From Curtobacterium herbarum (lineage in GTDB: Bacteria > Actinomycetota > Actinomycetes > Actinomycetales > Microbacteriaceae): a DNA stretch of 64,000 nt. Below are positions 21,624-62,344 of this stretch, in pieces; the stretch's first letter is position 1; each line of letters begins with the position of its first letter. Where the stretch lies: contig NZ_JAFBBT010000001.1 in NCBI RefSeq assembly GCF_016907335.1, positions 2,356,001 to 2,420,000 on the forward strand. The letters are read 5' to 3'. Position numbers and translations under genes: made by a program. The notes beneath the pieces are model-generated. The model saw only the letters and a program-made list of their open reading frames with translations. It did not search any database and was not told the DNA's origin.

Positions 21624-22697
21624 ATGTCGGCCAGCCGAGAACGGGACCTGCGCCGCTCGGGTACCCGGGCGGTGGTGCGTCGGACGTACCACTCGGTCAT
21701 CCGGCACCGGGTCGTCGACTCGGCGGCGTCGCTGACGTTCTTCGCGCTGCTCACGGTGTTCCCGACCGCCCTGACCGTGGTGTCGCTGCTGGCCGTCGTC
21801 GACCAGAGCGGCGACAGCGTCGCGGACATCATCGGCATCCTCGGTGTCCTGGTGCGCCCGGACACGGCTCGACACCTCGAGACCCCGCTCCGGCAGCTGC
21901 TGACGCTCGACAACCCGTGGCTCGGTGCGACCGTCGGACTCGTCCTGACGCTGTGGTCGCTGTCCGGGTACGCGACCGCGTTCGGCCGGGCGATGAACAC
22001 CGCCTACGAGGTCGAGGAGGGCCGGCGGATCTGGAAGTTCCGCGGCATGATGCTCCTCGTCACGCTGCTCATCATGGTCGGCGGCGCCGTCGCGATCGTC
22101 ATCCTGCTCGGCACCCCGATGATCTCCGCCGCGATCGTGCAGCAGGTCGGCTGGCCGTCCTGGGTCGACGAGCTCTGGAACGTCGCGAAGTGGCCGGTGC
22201 TCGCCGCGGACCTGGTCGTCATGGTCGCCGTGCTCTACACCGCCACCCCCAACGTGAAGACGCCACAGCTGCGGTGGGTCTCGGCCGGGGCCGCGTTCGC
22301 GATCGGCACCTGGGCCATCGCCACGGTCGGCTTCGCGGTCTACGTCGAGACGATCGGCGGCGGCAACCGTGCCTACGGCTGGCTCGGTGGCGCACTGCTG
22401 CTGCTCGTGTACCTGTACATCTCGAACTTCGTCCTGGTGGTCGGCGGGGAACTCGACTCCGAGGTGATCCGGATGCGGCAGCTCCTCGCCGGCATCGAGG
22501 CCGACGAGACCATCCGGTTGCCGCTCCGCGACGTCACCCGGAACTTCACGCTCGCCCGGTGGCGGGACCAGGACATCGCGGCGGCGGCGCGGGTGCGGGC
22601 CGCGGCGGCGGAGCTGCCCGACGACGACGGTCCGCAGGGCGAGGAGCTCCGGCGGGTGGCGGGGCAGGTGCGCGCGGGCGAGCGACCGATGCCCTGA
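21624..22697 (+). CDS. YihY/BrkB family membrane protein
   Basis: A 357-residue protein with about six membrane helices. Typical marks are DSAASLTFFALLTVFPTALTVVSL near residue 35, LWSLSGYATAFGRAMNTAYEVEEGRRIWKFRGMM, and YGWLGGALLLLVYLYISNFVLVVGGELDSE near the end of the domain. The family was once called ribonuclease BN, wrongly; its function is unclear. The charged tail after residue 300 is cytoplasmic. ATG at 21624 lies 7 nt after TACGGT (21611-21616), a leaderless-type promoter inside the MFS gene tail region. Confidence 0.9.
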   Translation: MSASRERDLRRSGTRAVVRRTYHSVIRHRVVDSAASLTFFALLTVFPTALTVVSLLAVVDQSGDSVADIIGILGVLVRPDTARHLETPLRQLLTLDNPWLGATVGLVLTLWSLSGYATAFGRAMNTAYEVEEGRRIWKFRGMMLLVTLLIMVGGAVAIVILLGTPMISAAIVQQVGWPSWVDELWNVAKWPVLAADLVVMVAVLYTATPNVKTPQLRWVSAGAAFAIGTWAIATVGFAVYVETIGGGNRAYGWLGGALLLLVYLYISNFVLVVGGELDSEVIRMRQLLAGIEADETIRLPLRDVTRNFTLARWRDQDIAAAARVRAAAAELPDDDGPQGEELRRVAGQVRAGERPMP

Positions 22698-22745
22698 CGG
22701 ACGGGAGGCGCGTGGCGGGGCCGCCACGGGCCTCCAGTCCGTCAG
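22694..22745. terminator. Long element-B hairpin between convergent yihY-like gene and aspA
   Basis: A 25-bp stem with two mismatches and a 2-nt loop, built on the dispersed core (GACGGGAGGC left, GCCTCCAGTC right). It starts in the stop region of the YihY-like gene and faces the convergent aspA gene, so it can terminate both. Confidence 0.75.
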
Positions 22746-22802
22746 GGGGTCCGGCCGGTTCGCCTGCGGGGCGCGTCAGCCCCGCTGCGGACGCGGGCCG
22801 CG

Positions 22803-24287
22803 TCAGCCCTGCGGCGGACGCGGGGCCGCGTCGCGGGCGCCCTGCTCGAGCATCGCCTCGGTGATCACCGGGATCGCCCCCGTGGCCAGCTCGATGCCGG
22901 ACAGTCGCGCCGGGCTGAGGACGCGGTGCACCTGGTGCTCGTCCATCAGACCCGCCGCGATCACCAGCGTGGAGATCGGCGTCGAGGTCGTCAGCGCCGT
23001 GTGCGCGATCGACGCCGCCGCCGCGTAGCCGATGTACGGCGTCAGTGCGGTGACGACGCCGACGTTCGTGTCGACCTGGGCGGCGAGCTTGGCCTCGTTC
23101 GCCTCGATCCCGATGACGCAGTGCTCGCGGAGGGTCGCACAGCCGCGGGCCATCCACTGCAGCGACTGCAGGATCGAGTGCGCGATGATCGGCTCGAACG
23201 CGTTCAGCTGGAGCTGGCCGCCCTCGGCCGCCATCGTCACCGTGGTGTCCGCCCCGGCGACGGCGAACGCGATCTGGTTCACGACCTCCGGGATCACCGG
23301 GTTCACCTTGCCAGGCATGATCGAGGAGCCCGCCTGCCGGGGCGGCAGCGTGATCTCGCCGAGGCCCGCCTGCGGCCCCGACGCCAGCAGCCGCAGGTCG
23401 TTGCAGATCTTCGACAGCTTCGCGGCGCTGCGCTTCACCGTGCCGGACAGGGTCATGAACGAACCGGCGTCACTCGTCGCCTCGATCAGGTCCGGCGCCG
23501 TGACGACGTCGATGCCGCTCGCCTCCTGCAGCTGCCGGCGCACCTCGTCGCGGTAGAGCGGGTCGGCGGTGATGCCCGTGCCGATCGCCGTCGCGCCGAG
23601 GTTCATCTCCGCCAGCAGCGGCACCACCCGGCGGAGCTGGACGACGTCCTCCTGGATGGTGTGCGCGAAGCCCGTGAACTCCTGGCCGAGGGTCATCGGC
23701 ACCGCGTCCTGCAGCTGCGTCCGCCCGACCTTCAGGACGTCCGCGAACGCCCGGCCCCGCTCGGCGAACGCGGCGGAGAGTTGCTCCAGCTGGTCGGCCA
23801 GGCGGCGCACCCCGTAGATCATCGCGATCTTGATGCTCGTCGGGTACGTGTCGTTCGTCGACTGGCTACGGTTCACGTGGTCGATCGGGTGCAGGTACGC
23901 GTAGTCGCCCCGCTCGCGGCCGAGGAGCTCGAGAGCCCGGTTCGCCAGGACCTCGTTCGTGTTCATGTTCGTGCTCGTGCCCGCACCGCCCTGCACCACG
24001 TCGACGACGAACTGGTCGCGGAGGGCACCGTCGCGGACCTCCTGCGCGGCACGGTCGATGGCGTCGGCACGCTCGTCGTCGAGGACCCCGATCGCCCGGT
24101 TCGCCCGGGCAGCGGCCTGCTTCACCGTCACCAGTGCGGCGACCAGGTCCGGGTACACCGCGATCGGCACGGAGGCGATCGGGAAGTTCTCCATCGCCCG
24201 GAGGGTGTTGATGCCCCAGTACGAGTCGACGGGCACCTCCCTCGAGCCCAGGGAATCGGTCTCGGTGCGGGTGGCAGCGCTCGTCAC
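22803..24287 (-). CDS. aspA: Aspartate ammonia-lyase (aspartase)
   Basis: A 494-residue member of the fumarase/aspartase superfamily that interconverts aspartate with fumarate and ammonia. The superfamily signature is GSSIMPGKVNPVIPEVVNQ; other conserved segments are QGGAGTSTNMNTNEVLANRA, HVNRSQSTNDTYPTSI and VGRTQLQDAVPMTLGQEF. It begins TRTETDSLGSREVPVDSYWG, an aspartase-type N-terminus. GTG at 24287 has AGAGGAA upstream and is preferred to GTG 24314. The ~1 kb upstream is non-coding repeat DNA. Fumarate hydratase class II is the only serious alternative and is less likely. Confidence 0.9.
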   Translation of the reverse strand: MTSAATRTETDSLGSREVPVDSYWGINTLRAMENFPIASVPIAVYPDLVAALVTVKQAAARANRAIGVLDDERADAIDRAAQEVRDGALRDQFVVDVVQGGAGTSTNMNTNEVLANRALELLGRERGDYAYLHPIDHVNRSQSTNDTYPTSIKIAMIYGVRRLADQLEQLSAAFAERGRAFADVLKVGRTQLQDAVPMTLGQEFTGFAHTIQEDVVQLRRVVPLLAEMNLGATAIGTGITADPLYRDEVRRQLQEASGIDVVTAPDLIEATSDAGSFMTLSGTVKRSAAKLSKICNDLRLLASGPQAGLGEITLPPRQAGSSIMPGKVNPVIPEVVNQIAFAVAGADTTVTMAAEGGQLQLNAFEPIIAHSILQSLQWMARGCATLREHCVIGIEANEAKLAAQVDTNVGVVTALTPYIGYAAAASIAHTALTTSTPISTLVIAAGLMDEHQVHRVLSPARLSGIELATGAIPVITEAMLEQGARDAAPRPPQG

Positions 24288-24384
24288 GTGGTGTTCCTCT
24301 CCGTCGCGGGTCACGTGTCGAGGGTAGTCCGCGACCGTCCGGCCGGTGCGGGGTGGGGGTGTGGGTACGAGCGGGTGCGGAGCG

Positions 24385-24443: not shown

Positions 24444-25213
24444 GCGAGCGGGCGGAACACCAGGGGCGCCTCGTCATGCACCACGGGATTCCGCCCACTC
24501 GCCTCCTGCGTGACGGGAGGCGCGTCGCCCTGCCGCCACGGGCCTCCCGTCCGCCGGGTGGCGAGCCGGGCGTGCGTCGAGCGGGCGAGAACGCGCGGTG
24601 CGGTCCTCACGTGGCCTGGCATTCCGCCCGCTCACCCCGAGGGCGGGCGGGAGGCACGCGACCGGCCCGCCACGCGCCTCCCGTCGCCAGCTGCCGGACG
24701 CGCGGTTGGCGAGCGGGCGGAAGCGCGCCGCGCTCGCGCCCGCCGCCCTGGTATTCCGCCCGCTCGCGGCCTCGTGCCAACGTCCGTGGGCTCCGCGCTC
24801 CGGCGAGCGGGCGCGAACGCGCGGTGCGGTCCTCACGTGTCCTGGCATTCCGCCCGCTCACGCCCAGGGCGGACGGGAGGCACGCGTCCGTGCCCGCCAC
24901 GCGCCTCCCGTCACCAGGTGGAGCGCGCGCTCGTGGCGAGCGGGCGCGAACGCGCCGCTCTGGCGCCTGCTGCCCTGGCATTTCGCCCGCTCGCGGCCGC
25001 GTGCTCGCCCTCCGCACTCCGCACTCCGCGCTCCGGCGAGCGGGCGCGAACGCGCGGTGCGTCCGCCAGCCACCCTGGCATCTCGCCCACTCGCGCTCAG
25101 GGCGGACGGGAGGCACGCGACCACCCCGCCCCGCGCCTCCCGACCGGCAGACGGCGAGCGGGCGCGAAAGCGCGGTGCGTCCGCCAGCCCACCCTGGCAT
25201 CTCGCCCGCTCGC
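24444..25213. repeat. Alternating array of two palindromic elements (7 A, 4 B)
   Basis: This 770-nt stretch has no gene. Element A (~55-60 nt) has arms GCGAGCGGGCG(G/CG)AA and its complement around a variable centre; copies at 24444-24502, 24579-24633, 24709-24767, 24805-24859, 24936-24994, 25036-25094 and 25154-25213. Element B (~40 nt) has arms GACGGGAGGC and GCCTCCCGTC; copies at 24512-24551, 24646-24684, 24872-24912 and 25105-25144. The order is A B A B A A B A A B A. A copies 2 and 4, and 6 and 7, are nearly identical in their centres, which suggests growth by duplication. Almost every copy could fold as a hairpin in RNA or as a cruciform in DNA. Confidence 0.85.
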
Positions 25214-25238
25214 GCCCGGGCGGGCGGCCCCGCAACGC

Positions 25239-25270
25239 GGCAGCGGCCGGCCCGAGGGCCGGCCGCTGCC
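25239..25270 (-). terminator. Terminator hairpin after the pit operon
   Basis: Perfect 15-bp stem (25239-25253 with 25256-25270) and a GA loop, 20 nt downstream of the stop of the 98-residue membrane protein gene. Confidence 0.8.
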
Positions 25271-25290
25271 GGAAGGGACGTGCGCGCGTC

Positions 25291-25586
25291 TCAGTGGAAG
25301 GCGGGCACGATCAGGTAGATGCCGTAGAGCACCGCCGCGGCGCAGAGCACGAAGCAGACCACGGCGAGCGCCCGGAGCACCCGGACGGCCCCGGCGGCGG
25401 CGTTCGGGTCGGGGAAGCCGGCGGTCGCCGGGCCGATCGTGCCGTCGTCCTTCACGGTGTACTTGCCGGCGCGGGTGTCGGCGGCGCTCCAGAAGCGCAG
25501 GCCGACGGAGTACACGGACACGACGAAGCACGCCGAGACGACGGCGACGAGTGCCACGAGCAGGAACGCTGCCCAGTCGATGCCCA

Positions 25587-25587
<1 letters not shown>
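25291..25587 (-). CDS. Small two-helix membrane protein coupled to the PiT transporter
   Basis: A 98-residue protein with two hydrophobic helices (about residues 5-30 and 70-93) separated by a short polar stretch (SAADTRAGKYTVKDDGTIGPATAG). Its ATG overlaps the stop of the phosphate transporter by one base (TGATG), so it is made together with it. The family is unknown to me; a role as a small partner of the transporter is inferred from coupling only. Confidence 0.75.
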
Positions 25588-26837
<1,250 letters not shown>

Positions 26838-26892
26838 CGCGGGCAAGTGTCCCAGGCGGGAGCACATCGAGCAAGCCGAACGGACACCTGTT

Positions 26893-32303: not shown

Positions 32304-32316
32304 ACGGGCCCGGCCC

Positions 32317-32369
32317 GACGACGGACGGGAGGCGCGGTGCGGGCCGCACCGCGCCTCCCGTCCGTCGTC
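32317..32369. terminator. Perfect 53-nt element-B hairpin between convergent genes
   Basis: 26-bp perfect stem around a single central base, carrying the core GACGGGAGGC and GCCTCCCGTC. It separates pabC (+) and the amidohydrolase (-), both ending here, and should act as a bidirectional terminator. Confidence 0.8.
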
Positions 32370-32383
32370 TGGTCACGTCTCGG

Positions 32384-39245: not shown

Positions 39246-39328
39246 CCCGGCTCCCGGCGCGAGCCAGACCCGGCGCCCGGCGCGAGCCGGACCCGGCGCC
39301 CGGCTCCCAGCTCCCGGCGCGAGCCGGA
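39246..39328. repeat. 23-nt tandem repeat after the mycoredoxin gene
   Basis: Copies at 39246-39268 and 39269-39291 differ at two positions; a third, with an internal duplication, runs to 39328. It begins one base after the mycoredoxin stop codon. Confidence 0.8.
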
Positions 39329-39331
39329 CCC

Positions 39332-39391
39332 GCACAACAGGAACCCGCTCGAACCACGGGAGACCGTGGTTCGAGCGGGTTCTTGTTGTGC
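39332..39391. terminator. Very long bidirectional terminator
   Basis: 28-bp stem with a single G-T mismatch and a GAGA loop (39360-39363), between the convergent mycoredoxin and SNF2 helicase genes. Confidence 0.85.
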
Positions 39392-39455
39392 GCAGCCGAA
39401 CGGCGCCAGCCAGCCGGCCCGCCCGCCCGAACGGCGCCAGCCCGCCGGCCGGCCG

Positions 39456-57848: not shown

Positions 57849-57924
57849 TGGTGGATCTGAGGGGACTCGAACCCCTGACCCCCTGCATGCCATGCAGGTG
57901 CGCTACCAGCTGCGCCACAGACCC
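57849..57924 (-). tRNA. tRNA-Ala (anticodon GGC)
   Basis: 76 nt including an encoded CCA end. The acceptor stem GGGTCTG/CAGATCC contains the G3-U70 wobble that is the hallmark identity element of tRNA-Ala. The anticodon stem CCTGC/GCAGG encloses ATGGCAT, giving anticodon GGC. The T arm GGTTCGAGTC is normal. It lies between the accessory pair and rsfS. Confidence 0.98.
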
Positions 57925-62276: not shown

Positions 62277-62304
62277 GACCCGATCCTAGGTCAGCGGTGC
62301 GTGT

Positions 62305-62330
62305 CGGACGGGAGGCGTGCCTCCCGTCCG
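62305..62330. repeat. Perfect element-B palindrome between proB and proA
   Basis: CGGACGGGAGGC-GT-GCCTCCCGTCCG: 12-bp arms with a 2-nt loop, lying between the proB stop (62345) and the proA promoter (62283-62288). It likely ends proB transcription. Confidence 0.8.
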
Positions 62331-62344
62331 CCCGGCAGCCACCG

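Follow-up and report, generated by a model that had tools for sequence, protein, structure and literature searches.

The array described here lies in a window of 64,000 nucleotides (nt) from Curtobacterium herbarum (contig NZ_JAFBBT010000001.1, positions 2,356,001 to 2,420,000); the window denotes this whole stretch. Between positions 24444 and 25213 it contains seven copies of a palindrome, A, and four copies of a second palindrome, B, in the order A B A B A A B A A B A. The array is flanked by aspA and by a gene for a 98-residue protein, the latter adjoining a phosphate transporter gene. Comparison of related genomes indicates that A is probably the recognition site of a protein in which an AbiEi-like part is fused to a Vsr-like nuclease domain, and that it may serve both as the operator of this protein and, in amplified arrays, as a selfishly spreading repeat. 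The features of the locus are as follows.

22803..24314, minus strand: aspA, aspartate ammonia-lyase (longest open reading frame; the true start may be further in)
24444..24502, no strand: A unit 1, 59 nt, inverted half-site pair
24512..24551, no strand: B unit 1, terminator-like palindrome
24577..24635, no strand: A unit 2
24646..24685, no strand: B unit 2
24709..24767, no strand: A unit 3
24803..24861, no strand: A unit 4
24872..24912, no strand: B unit 3
24936..24994, no strand: A unit 5
25036..25094, no strand: A unit 6
25105..25144, no strand: B unit 4
25154..25213, no strand: A unit 7, 60 nt
25238..25271, no strand: separate perfect 16-bp inverted repeat directly 3' of the 98-residue protein gene, perhaps the terminator of that gene and the phosphate transporter operon in this strain
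25291..25587, minus strand: 98-residue protein, no family found; the slot can be recognised in relatives by its orthologues
25587..26867, minus strand: PHO4-family phosphate transporter

The arms of A are GAGCGGGCG and its complement, which start 46 nt apart in six units and 47 nt apart in unit 7. The A units measure 59-60 nt and the B units 40-41 nt. The order, place and number of the units agree with an initial annotation made from the sequence of the window, which had also put the A-to-A spacing at about 130 nt across a B and about 100 nt without one. The former value holds for three of the four intervals (132-133 nt) and fails for the fourth (118 nt), and the latter corresponds to the 94 and 100 nt measured. 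The centres of A units 2 and 4 are nearly identical, as are those of units 6 and 7, and these pairs fit the stepwise duplication that had been proposed; the array has a period of 226-233 nt. The window and four 20-kb stretches from elsewhere in the genome together contain 18 exact A arm pairs, 36 with at most one mismatch and 40 with at most two. The first two counts compare with 0 in ten first-order random versions and the third with 0-2 in random versions. Within the window, A occurs only in the array (no further copy at up to two mismatches), whereas B is dispersed, both as first noticed.

A is a pair of inverted half-sites of about 22 nt that recurs in intergenic arrays and is restricted to Curtobacterium. 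Strict A pairs, a pattern that misses degenerate units, are present in 58 of 66 Curtobacterium genomes, in three of them (G013, G060, G064) only at the level of the control. Among named genomes, 21 stretches match the half-site; 11 are from Curtobacterium and ten are single matches in unrelated taxa, which were taken as chance. A family-wide search of 398 genomes, with a narrower pattern that overlooks G062 and its eight strict pairs, matched 16: eight of the ten Curtobacterium genomes drawn and eight others with one hit each. These eight are fewer than the approximately 19 genomes outside Curtobacterium matched by the reversed control. The length of the A core is the same within 1 nt in 127 of 131 units, with gaps of 34-40 permitted. 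Each arm of A behaves as a half-site of its own. Two arms from one unit match no better than two from different units in the four Curtobacterium genomes compared, where the observed pairing value is reached by 1946, 1447, 1867 and 1655 of 2000 shuffles.

The arrays are clustered, and part of them is shared between species. Strict A pairs in the genome of the window (G000) lie at 2.380, 2.511-2.537, 2.625 and 2.894 Mb, and all 18 of those in G005 lie inside 143 kb. Several arrays occupy the same orthologous spacers in G000, G005, G027 and G028, and others are found in some of the four only. The shared slots include the spacer between an MFS transporter gene and an exonuclease gene, with 5, 3, 3 and 7 units, respectively, and the spacers around yceI. 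At the slot of the window the array is confined to the clade of G000, G044, G020 and G036, and one to few A arms are present in G054, G014 and G055. Of 30 orthologous loci fetched, 28 have at least 747 bases behind the 98-residue protein gene, and these contain arms of B, arms of A or no arm of either kind; A pairs or several A arms lie between the genes in seven (L100-L103, L118, L127, L128), and a lone arm in L115. G040 has no A across 180 kb of the array region, where its spacers are short. The slots have convergent, divergent and co-directional gene neighbours alike, which argues against a simple regulon; the gene calls for these genomes come from a simple script of our own, in which some genes are merged or trimmed. 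An A-like arm pair is also found inside the coding sequence of a DUF6716 gene orthologue (G005:C1:1210661, G027:C1:1125611), with a very similar sequence at G006:C12:142821. It is either functional or a product of chance within conserved coding sequence.

Amid the A arrays, 151 kb from that of the window, lies a gene for a 304-residue protein (L047:6954-7868, genome 2531954-2532868), with an aldo/keto reductase gene and yceI on either side. Orthologues of the protein, defined by a cut-off of 250 bits (the next best paralogue scores 187), are present in 49 of the 66 Curtobacterium genomes, the G021 copy being in pieces. All 49 have 6-31 strict A pairs, against 0-7 per genome for the reversed control. 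In the 11 genomes without an orthologue and with a readable locus, the number is invariably 0-2: none in G001, G012, G023, G035, G040, G042, G043 and G045, one in G013 and G060, and two in G064. All 11 contain yceI, with no trace of the partner gene in that stretch; the reductase gene and yceI are side by side in eight, and the reductase gene is inverted in G042 and G043 and absent from the stretch in G023. The locus exists with and without the gene, and comparison of the two forms puts the 3' edge of the insert at the stop codon of the nuclease gene, adjoining the promoter region of yceI. The co-occurrence of gene and A has a Fisher p of 3e-12, or 1e-8 with six draft genomes (see below) counted against it, kinship being ignored in both. 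Two marker trees require at least two label changes, and five on the better-sampled marker; the marker near the window places the clade of the window beside an A-less clade. Gene and arrays are jointly absent in at least two separate lineages.

The gene itself is mostly preceded by an A. Among 30 orthologue loci, one of which (L213) contains masked bases, 25 have the near edge of an A 97-106 bp ahead of the aligned start codon; the distance is 127 bp in the genome of the window. Within the stretches, an A occurs anywhere upstream in 28 and anywhere downstream in 29 of the 30 loci; the downstream A of the main lineage was on the far side of yceI in the loci inspected for this. When a palindrome is required to have at least 16 of 20 arm positions paired, 18 of 29 main-lineage orthologues have one upstream (shuffles 9/180, coding windows 0/30), a count that leaves out L213, a false hit within the raw 19/30.

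The 304-residue protein is predicted to consist of an AbiEi antitoxin fold fused to a C-terminal Vsr/EDxHD homing-endonuclease domain, based on a fold computed for a homologue. Profile hits are weak (3hrl at 3e-4, 3r3p at 3e-3). At E values up to 1, PF18741 is matched by 45 and PF04480 by 29 of 50 relatives, in which D257 is invariant and E198, D230, E241 and H247 each reach a conservation of 90% or more. The nucleotidyltransferase gene that partners AbiE proteins in type IV systems does not adjoin the gene in the genome of the window, where both neighbours are those named above. The closest named relatives of the protein are from Curtobacterium, and its family is matched in 106 of 148 genomes drawn from the class, with up to 14 members per genome when at most 15 candidates per genome were scored. 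Relatives were also found in four plasmid records and one phage record; none is more than 60% identical, and they were set aside as a clue to mobility.

Paralogues and members from other genera have palindromes of their own. In Curtobacterium paralogues, which are about 40% identical to the protein, other palindromes of similar size lie upstream in 15 of 20 (shuffles 2/120, coding windows 1/20). Five of these hits (L221, L222, L223, L225, L233) all represent a single compact GC-rich hairpin, located 226-272 bp upstream, which looks like the terminator of the preceding gene and makes 10 of 20 the fairer count. In other genera the upstream palindrome is present in 24 of 29 members (shuffles 1/174, coding windows 0/29), not all independent, as related members share related palindromes. 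Control windows before other genes of the same stretches gave 22/270, or 11/114 where the spacer is at least 150 bp. Among members that reach the threshold upstream (18 orthologues without L213, 15 paralogues and 24 others), 18 of the 24 from other genera, 7 of the 15 Curtobacterium paralogues and 0 of the 18 main-lineage orthologues have the same palindrome again in the 300 bp that follow the gene; controls with the palindrome of an unrelated member gave 30/548 and 10/197 for the first two groups, respectively. The copy behind the gene could also act as a terminator. The flanks of about 10 kb of 20 members from other genera, largely the same genes as in these counts, contain 19 clear upstream palindromes, 16 of them with a second copy just past the gene. 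A further 28 copies were found in these flanks, whereas reversed arms gave 2. A second, independent array accompanies a paralogue at L216 (G001:C1:3326212-3331039), in a genome that has neither A nor the main nuclease. Another palindrome occurs there four times upstream of the paralogue, at distances of 144-148 nt, and again behind it.

The palindrome of a Jiangella-type member was counted in eight genomes, six of its family and two of others. The copy numbers are 63, 51, 46, 19, 18, 10, 3 and 0, and the reversed control gave 0. As forecast from a coupling of palindrome and protein, G543 and G472 have 0 palindromes. In G574, a different palindrome form of 50 nt, GATCATGGCG...CGCCATGATC, is mixed with forms of 55 nt.

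Judged from these sequence patterns, the AbiEi-Vsr protein very probably binds A, and its AbiEi-like N-terminal part would contact both inverted half-sites. It is likely that the protein regulates its own synthesis through the upstream A, which would act as an operator by which the AbiEi part holds its own promoter down; operator binding of the AbiEi type would explain the site before the gene. Amplification of further A copies would have produced the intergenic arrays near the gene, among them that of the window. That the nuclease drives this spread is a more delicate proposal, for which we put the chances at slightly below even. The predicted nuclease would nick or cut at A, and repair would copy units into neighbouring spacers and keep them alike within each genome. 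Such copying would explain why each member has a private palindrome, why copies flank the gene on both sides and cluster around it, and why gene and repeat are missing together.

Several results weigh against this reading or parts of it. The units were picked by the outer 9 nt of A, which makes the sameness of these positions partly an effect of the selection; the inner consensus varies between species. A Foldseek search gave no match at E 0.001 or better. The main lineage has no A directly behind the gene, and the next one is 791-1045 bp further in 29 of 30 loci. Six draft genomes without an orthologue and with an unreadable locus have 4-14 A pairs (G026 14, G056 6, G057 4, G059 7, G061 10, G065 4). 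As yceI was likewise not found in them, the locus is either unassembled or deleted, and in the latter case they are counter-examples. G584 has 60 copies of the Jiangella-type palindrome and only remote members of the protein family were found in it (best E 4.6e-26, with 15 of 137 candidates scored), which speaks against strict coupling, and the 15 palindromes of G574 are of mixed kinds and interiors, contrary to forecast. Copying by the nuclease alone leaves unexplained both G584 and the genome-wide scatter of the Jiangella-type repeats. The arms of the repeats in G593 covary (6.41 of 9 positions against 4.39 with shuffled partners, 0 of 5000 shuffles as high, 32 distinct units of 51 used), which independent half-sites would not require; cruciform extrusion or gene conversion from arm to arm could be the cause. 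The surroundings of the gene were compared in eight pairs of closely related genomes, with masked bases in one pair. No clean insertion of a single unit with a duplicated target was found, and the insertions and deletions look like recombination between units or simple repeats.

It is possible, at a distinctly lower probability, that the arrays serve the host. The same protein would bind A, the arrays would titrate the autoregulated protein or organise the chromosome region, and the nuclease fold would be inactive or secondary. A retained function fits the arrays that hold the same slots in distant species, the independence of the half-sites and the autoregulation of AbiEi-type proteins described in PMC7319586. 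The joint absence of gene and arrays in at least two separate lineages speaks against it, and a dead nuclease domain would not need the conserved acidic and histidine residues listed above. The initial annotation had offered a BIME-like (bacterial interspersed mosaic element) protein-binding array, a structured noncoding RNA and transposase-mobilised miniature elements as guesses. Binding of a protein is the best supported of the three. A structured RNA or a terminator-like hairpin of the kind of B is very unlikely for A: its palindromic form, its intergenic position and the covarying arms in G593 would suit one, but the arms of the Curtobacterium units do not match each other in particular, the arrays occur in every gene orientation, the unit length is nearly fixed, and Rfam has no match in the array at gathering score (the sole match in the window is a tRNA at 57852-57924).

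The assignment of A to the repetitive extragenic palindromic (REP) or BIME families, moved by a REP-associated tyrosine transposase (RAYT), did not hold up. A resembles such a system in forming arrays of short palindromes between genes, in its variable copy number and in having a dedicated enzyme close by. PMC3733652 defines a REP as a hairpin of 20-40 bp with a GTAG or CGTC tag at one end. A exceeds this length, neither tag is present in the consensus of its four flanking bases, and G000 has no Y1_Tnp match, whereas five of 14 control genomes do, which makes this explanation highly improbable. Mobilisation by a dedicated enzyme is conceivable, but the enzyme would be the AbiEi-Vsr fusion and not a transposase. 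An array that arose passively, by chance tandem duplication of spacer DNA without any partner protein, deserves equally little credence. The duplicated unit pairs and the period of the array show that duplication took place, and close relatives differ by gain or loss of units; chance duplication leaves unexplained the genus-wide arms, the shared slots and the coupling to one gene.

A and its putative partner share features with several known systems. Like A, the repeats of REP/REPIN and RAYT systems are short intergenic multi-copy palindromes that form arrays and are tied to an enzyme gene with copies at its flanks; the likeness extends to the way of working only if the AbiEi-Vsr enzyme spreads the repeats. 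Here, in contrast, the partner is an AbiEi-Vsr protein without a Y1 match, and the repeat is a tagless unit of 50-69 nt with two half-sites. The promoter of Rv2827c, an operator of the AbiEi type, has inverted half-sites of about 23 nt (59 bp including a 13-bp gap) before a gene whose product has the same N-terminal fold. Unlike such operators, A has tens of extra copies away from the gene, and a fused nuclease domain takes the place of the separate toxin gene of type IV systems. The C-terminal fold is like those of Vsr and the EDxHD homing endonucleases. One of the latter, I-Bth0305I, forms a dimer on a target almost 60 bp long (PMC3943268). In the present case no intron or intein was seen, and the host genome retains many copies of the site. 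The C-terminal domain belongs to the DUF559 / MTES_1575 proteins, for which no repeat partner turned up in the open-access literature searched. Titles and abstract beginnings of that literature gave no account of such a palindrome-nuclease system, and no paper was found that ties the protein family to a repeat or its AbiEi-joined members to a function.

Element B, unlike A, is a terminator-like hairpin common in this genome. It has 158 exact copies, against 0 for the reversed control. Within the window, B palindromes also lie outside the array, at 22692-22747, 32314-32372 and 62298-62337. By the gene calls described above, the first 30 of the 158 copies are all intergenic, 15 between convergent, 15 between co-directional and none between divergent genes, and the distance to a gene 3' end is at most 40 bp in 32 of 45 cases. 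Several relatives carry B arms without A in the spacer behind the 98-residue protein gene. B was therefore probably the first of the two in the spacer of the window, and A units were added later and then duplicated together with it. A and B are distinct elements whose alternation is incidental; the array probably grew next to a B, and local duplication beside this older terminator would have copied both together. A 92-nt inverted repeat at 39316-39407 of the window, with 44-nt arms that are 82% complementary, is neither A nor B.

The pairing of palindromes with AbiEi-Vsr proteins points to an undescribed system of repeat and enzyme. We tentatively suggest, with somewhat less confidence than the role of the nuclease in spreading A, that selfish AbiEi-EDxHD nucleases are widespread in actinomycetes, each bracketed by and spreading private palindromes of 50-69 nt, as a second, independent solution beside REP and RAYT. 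Many members of the family seem to bring their own palindrome, so that their DNA target may be read from the genome. If the nuclease spreads the repeats, REP and RAYT would be joined by a repeat-and-enzyme system of a new type; otherwise, the family would amount to a great many DNA-binding proteins that are autoregulated and whose sites form unusual arrays.
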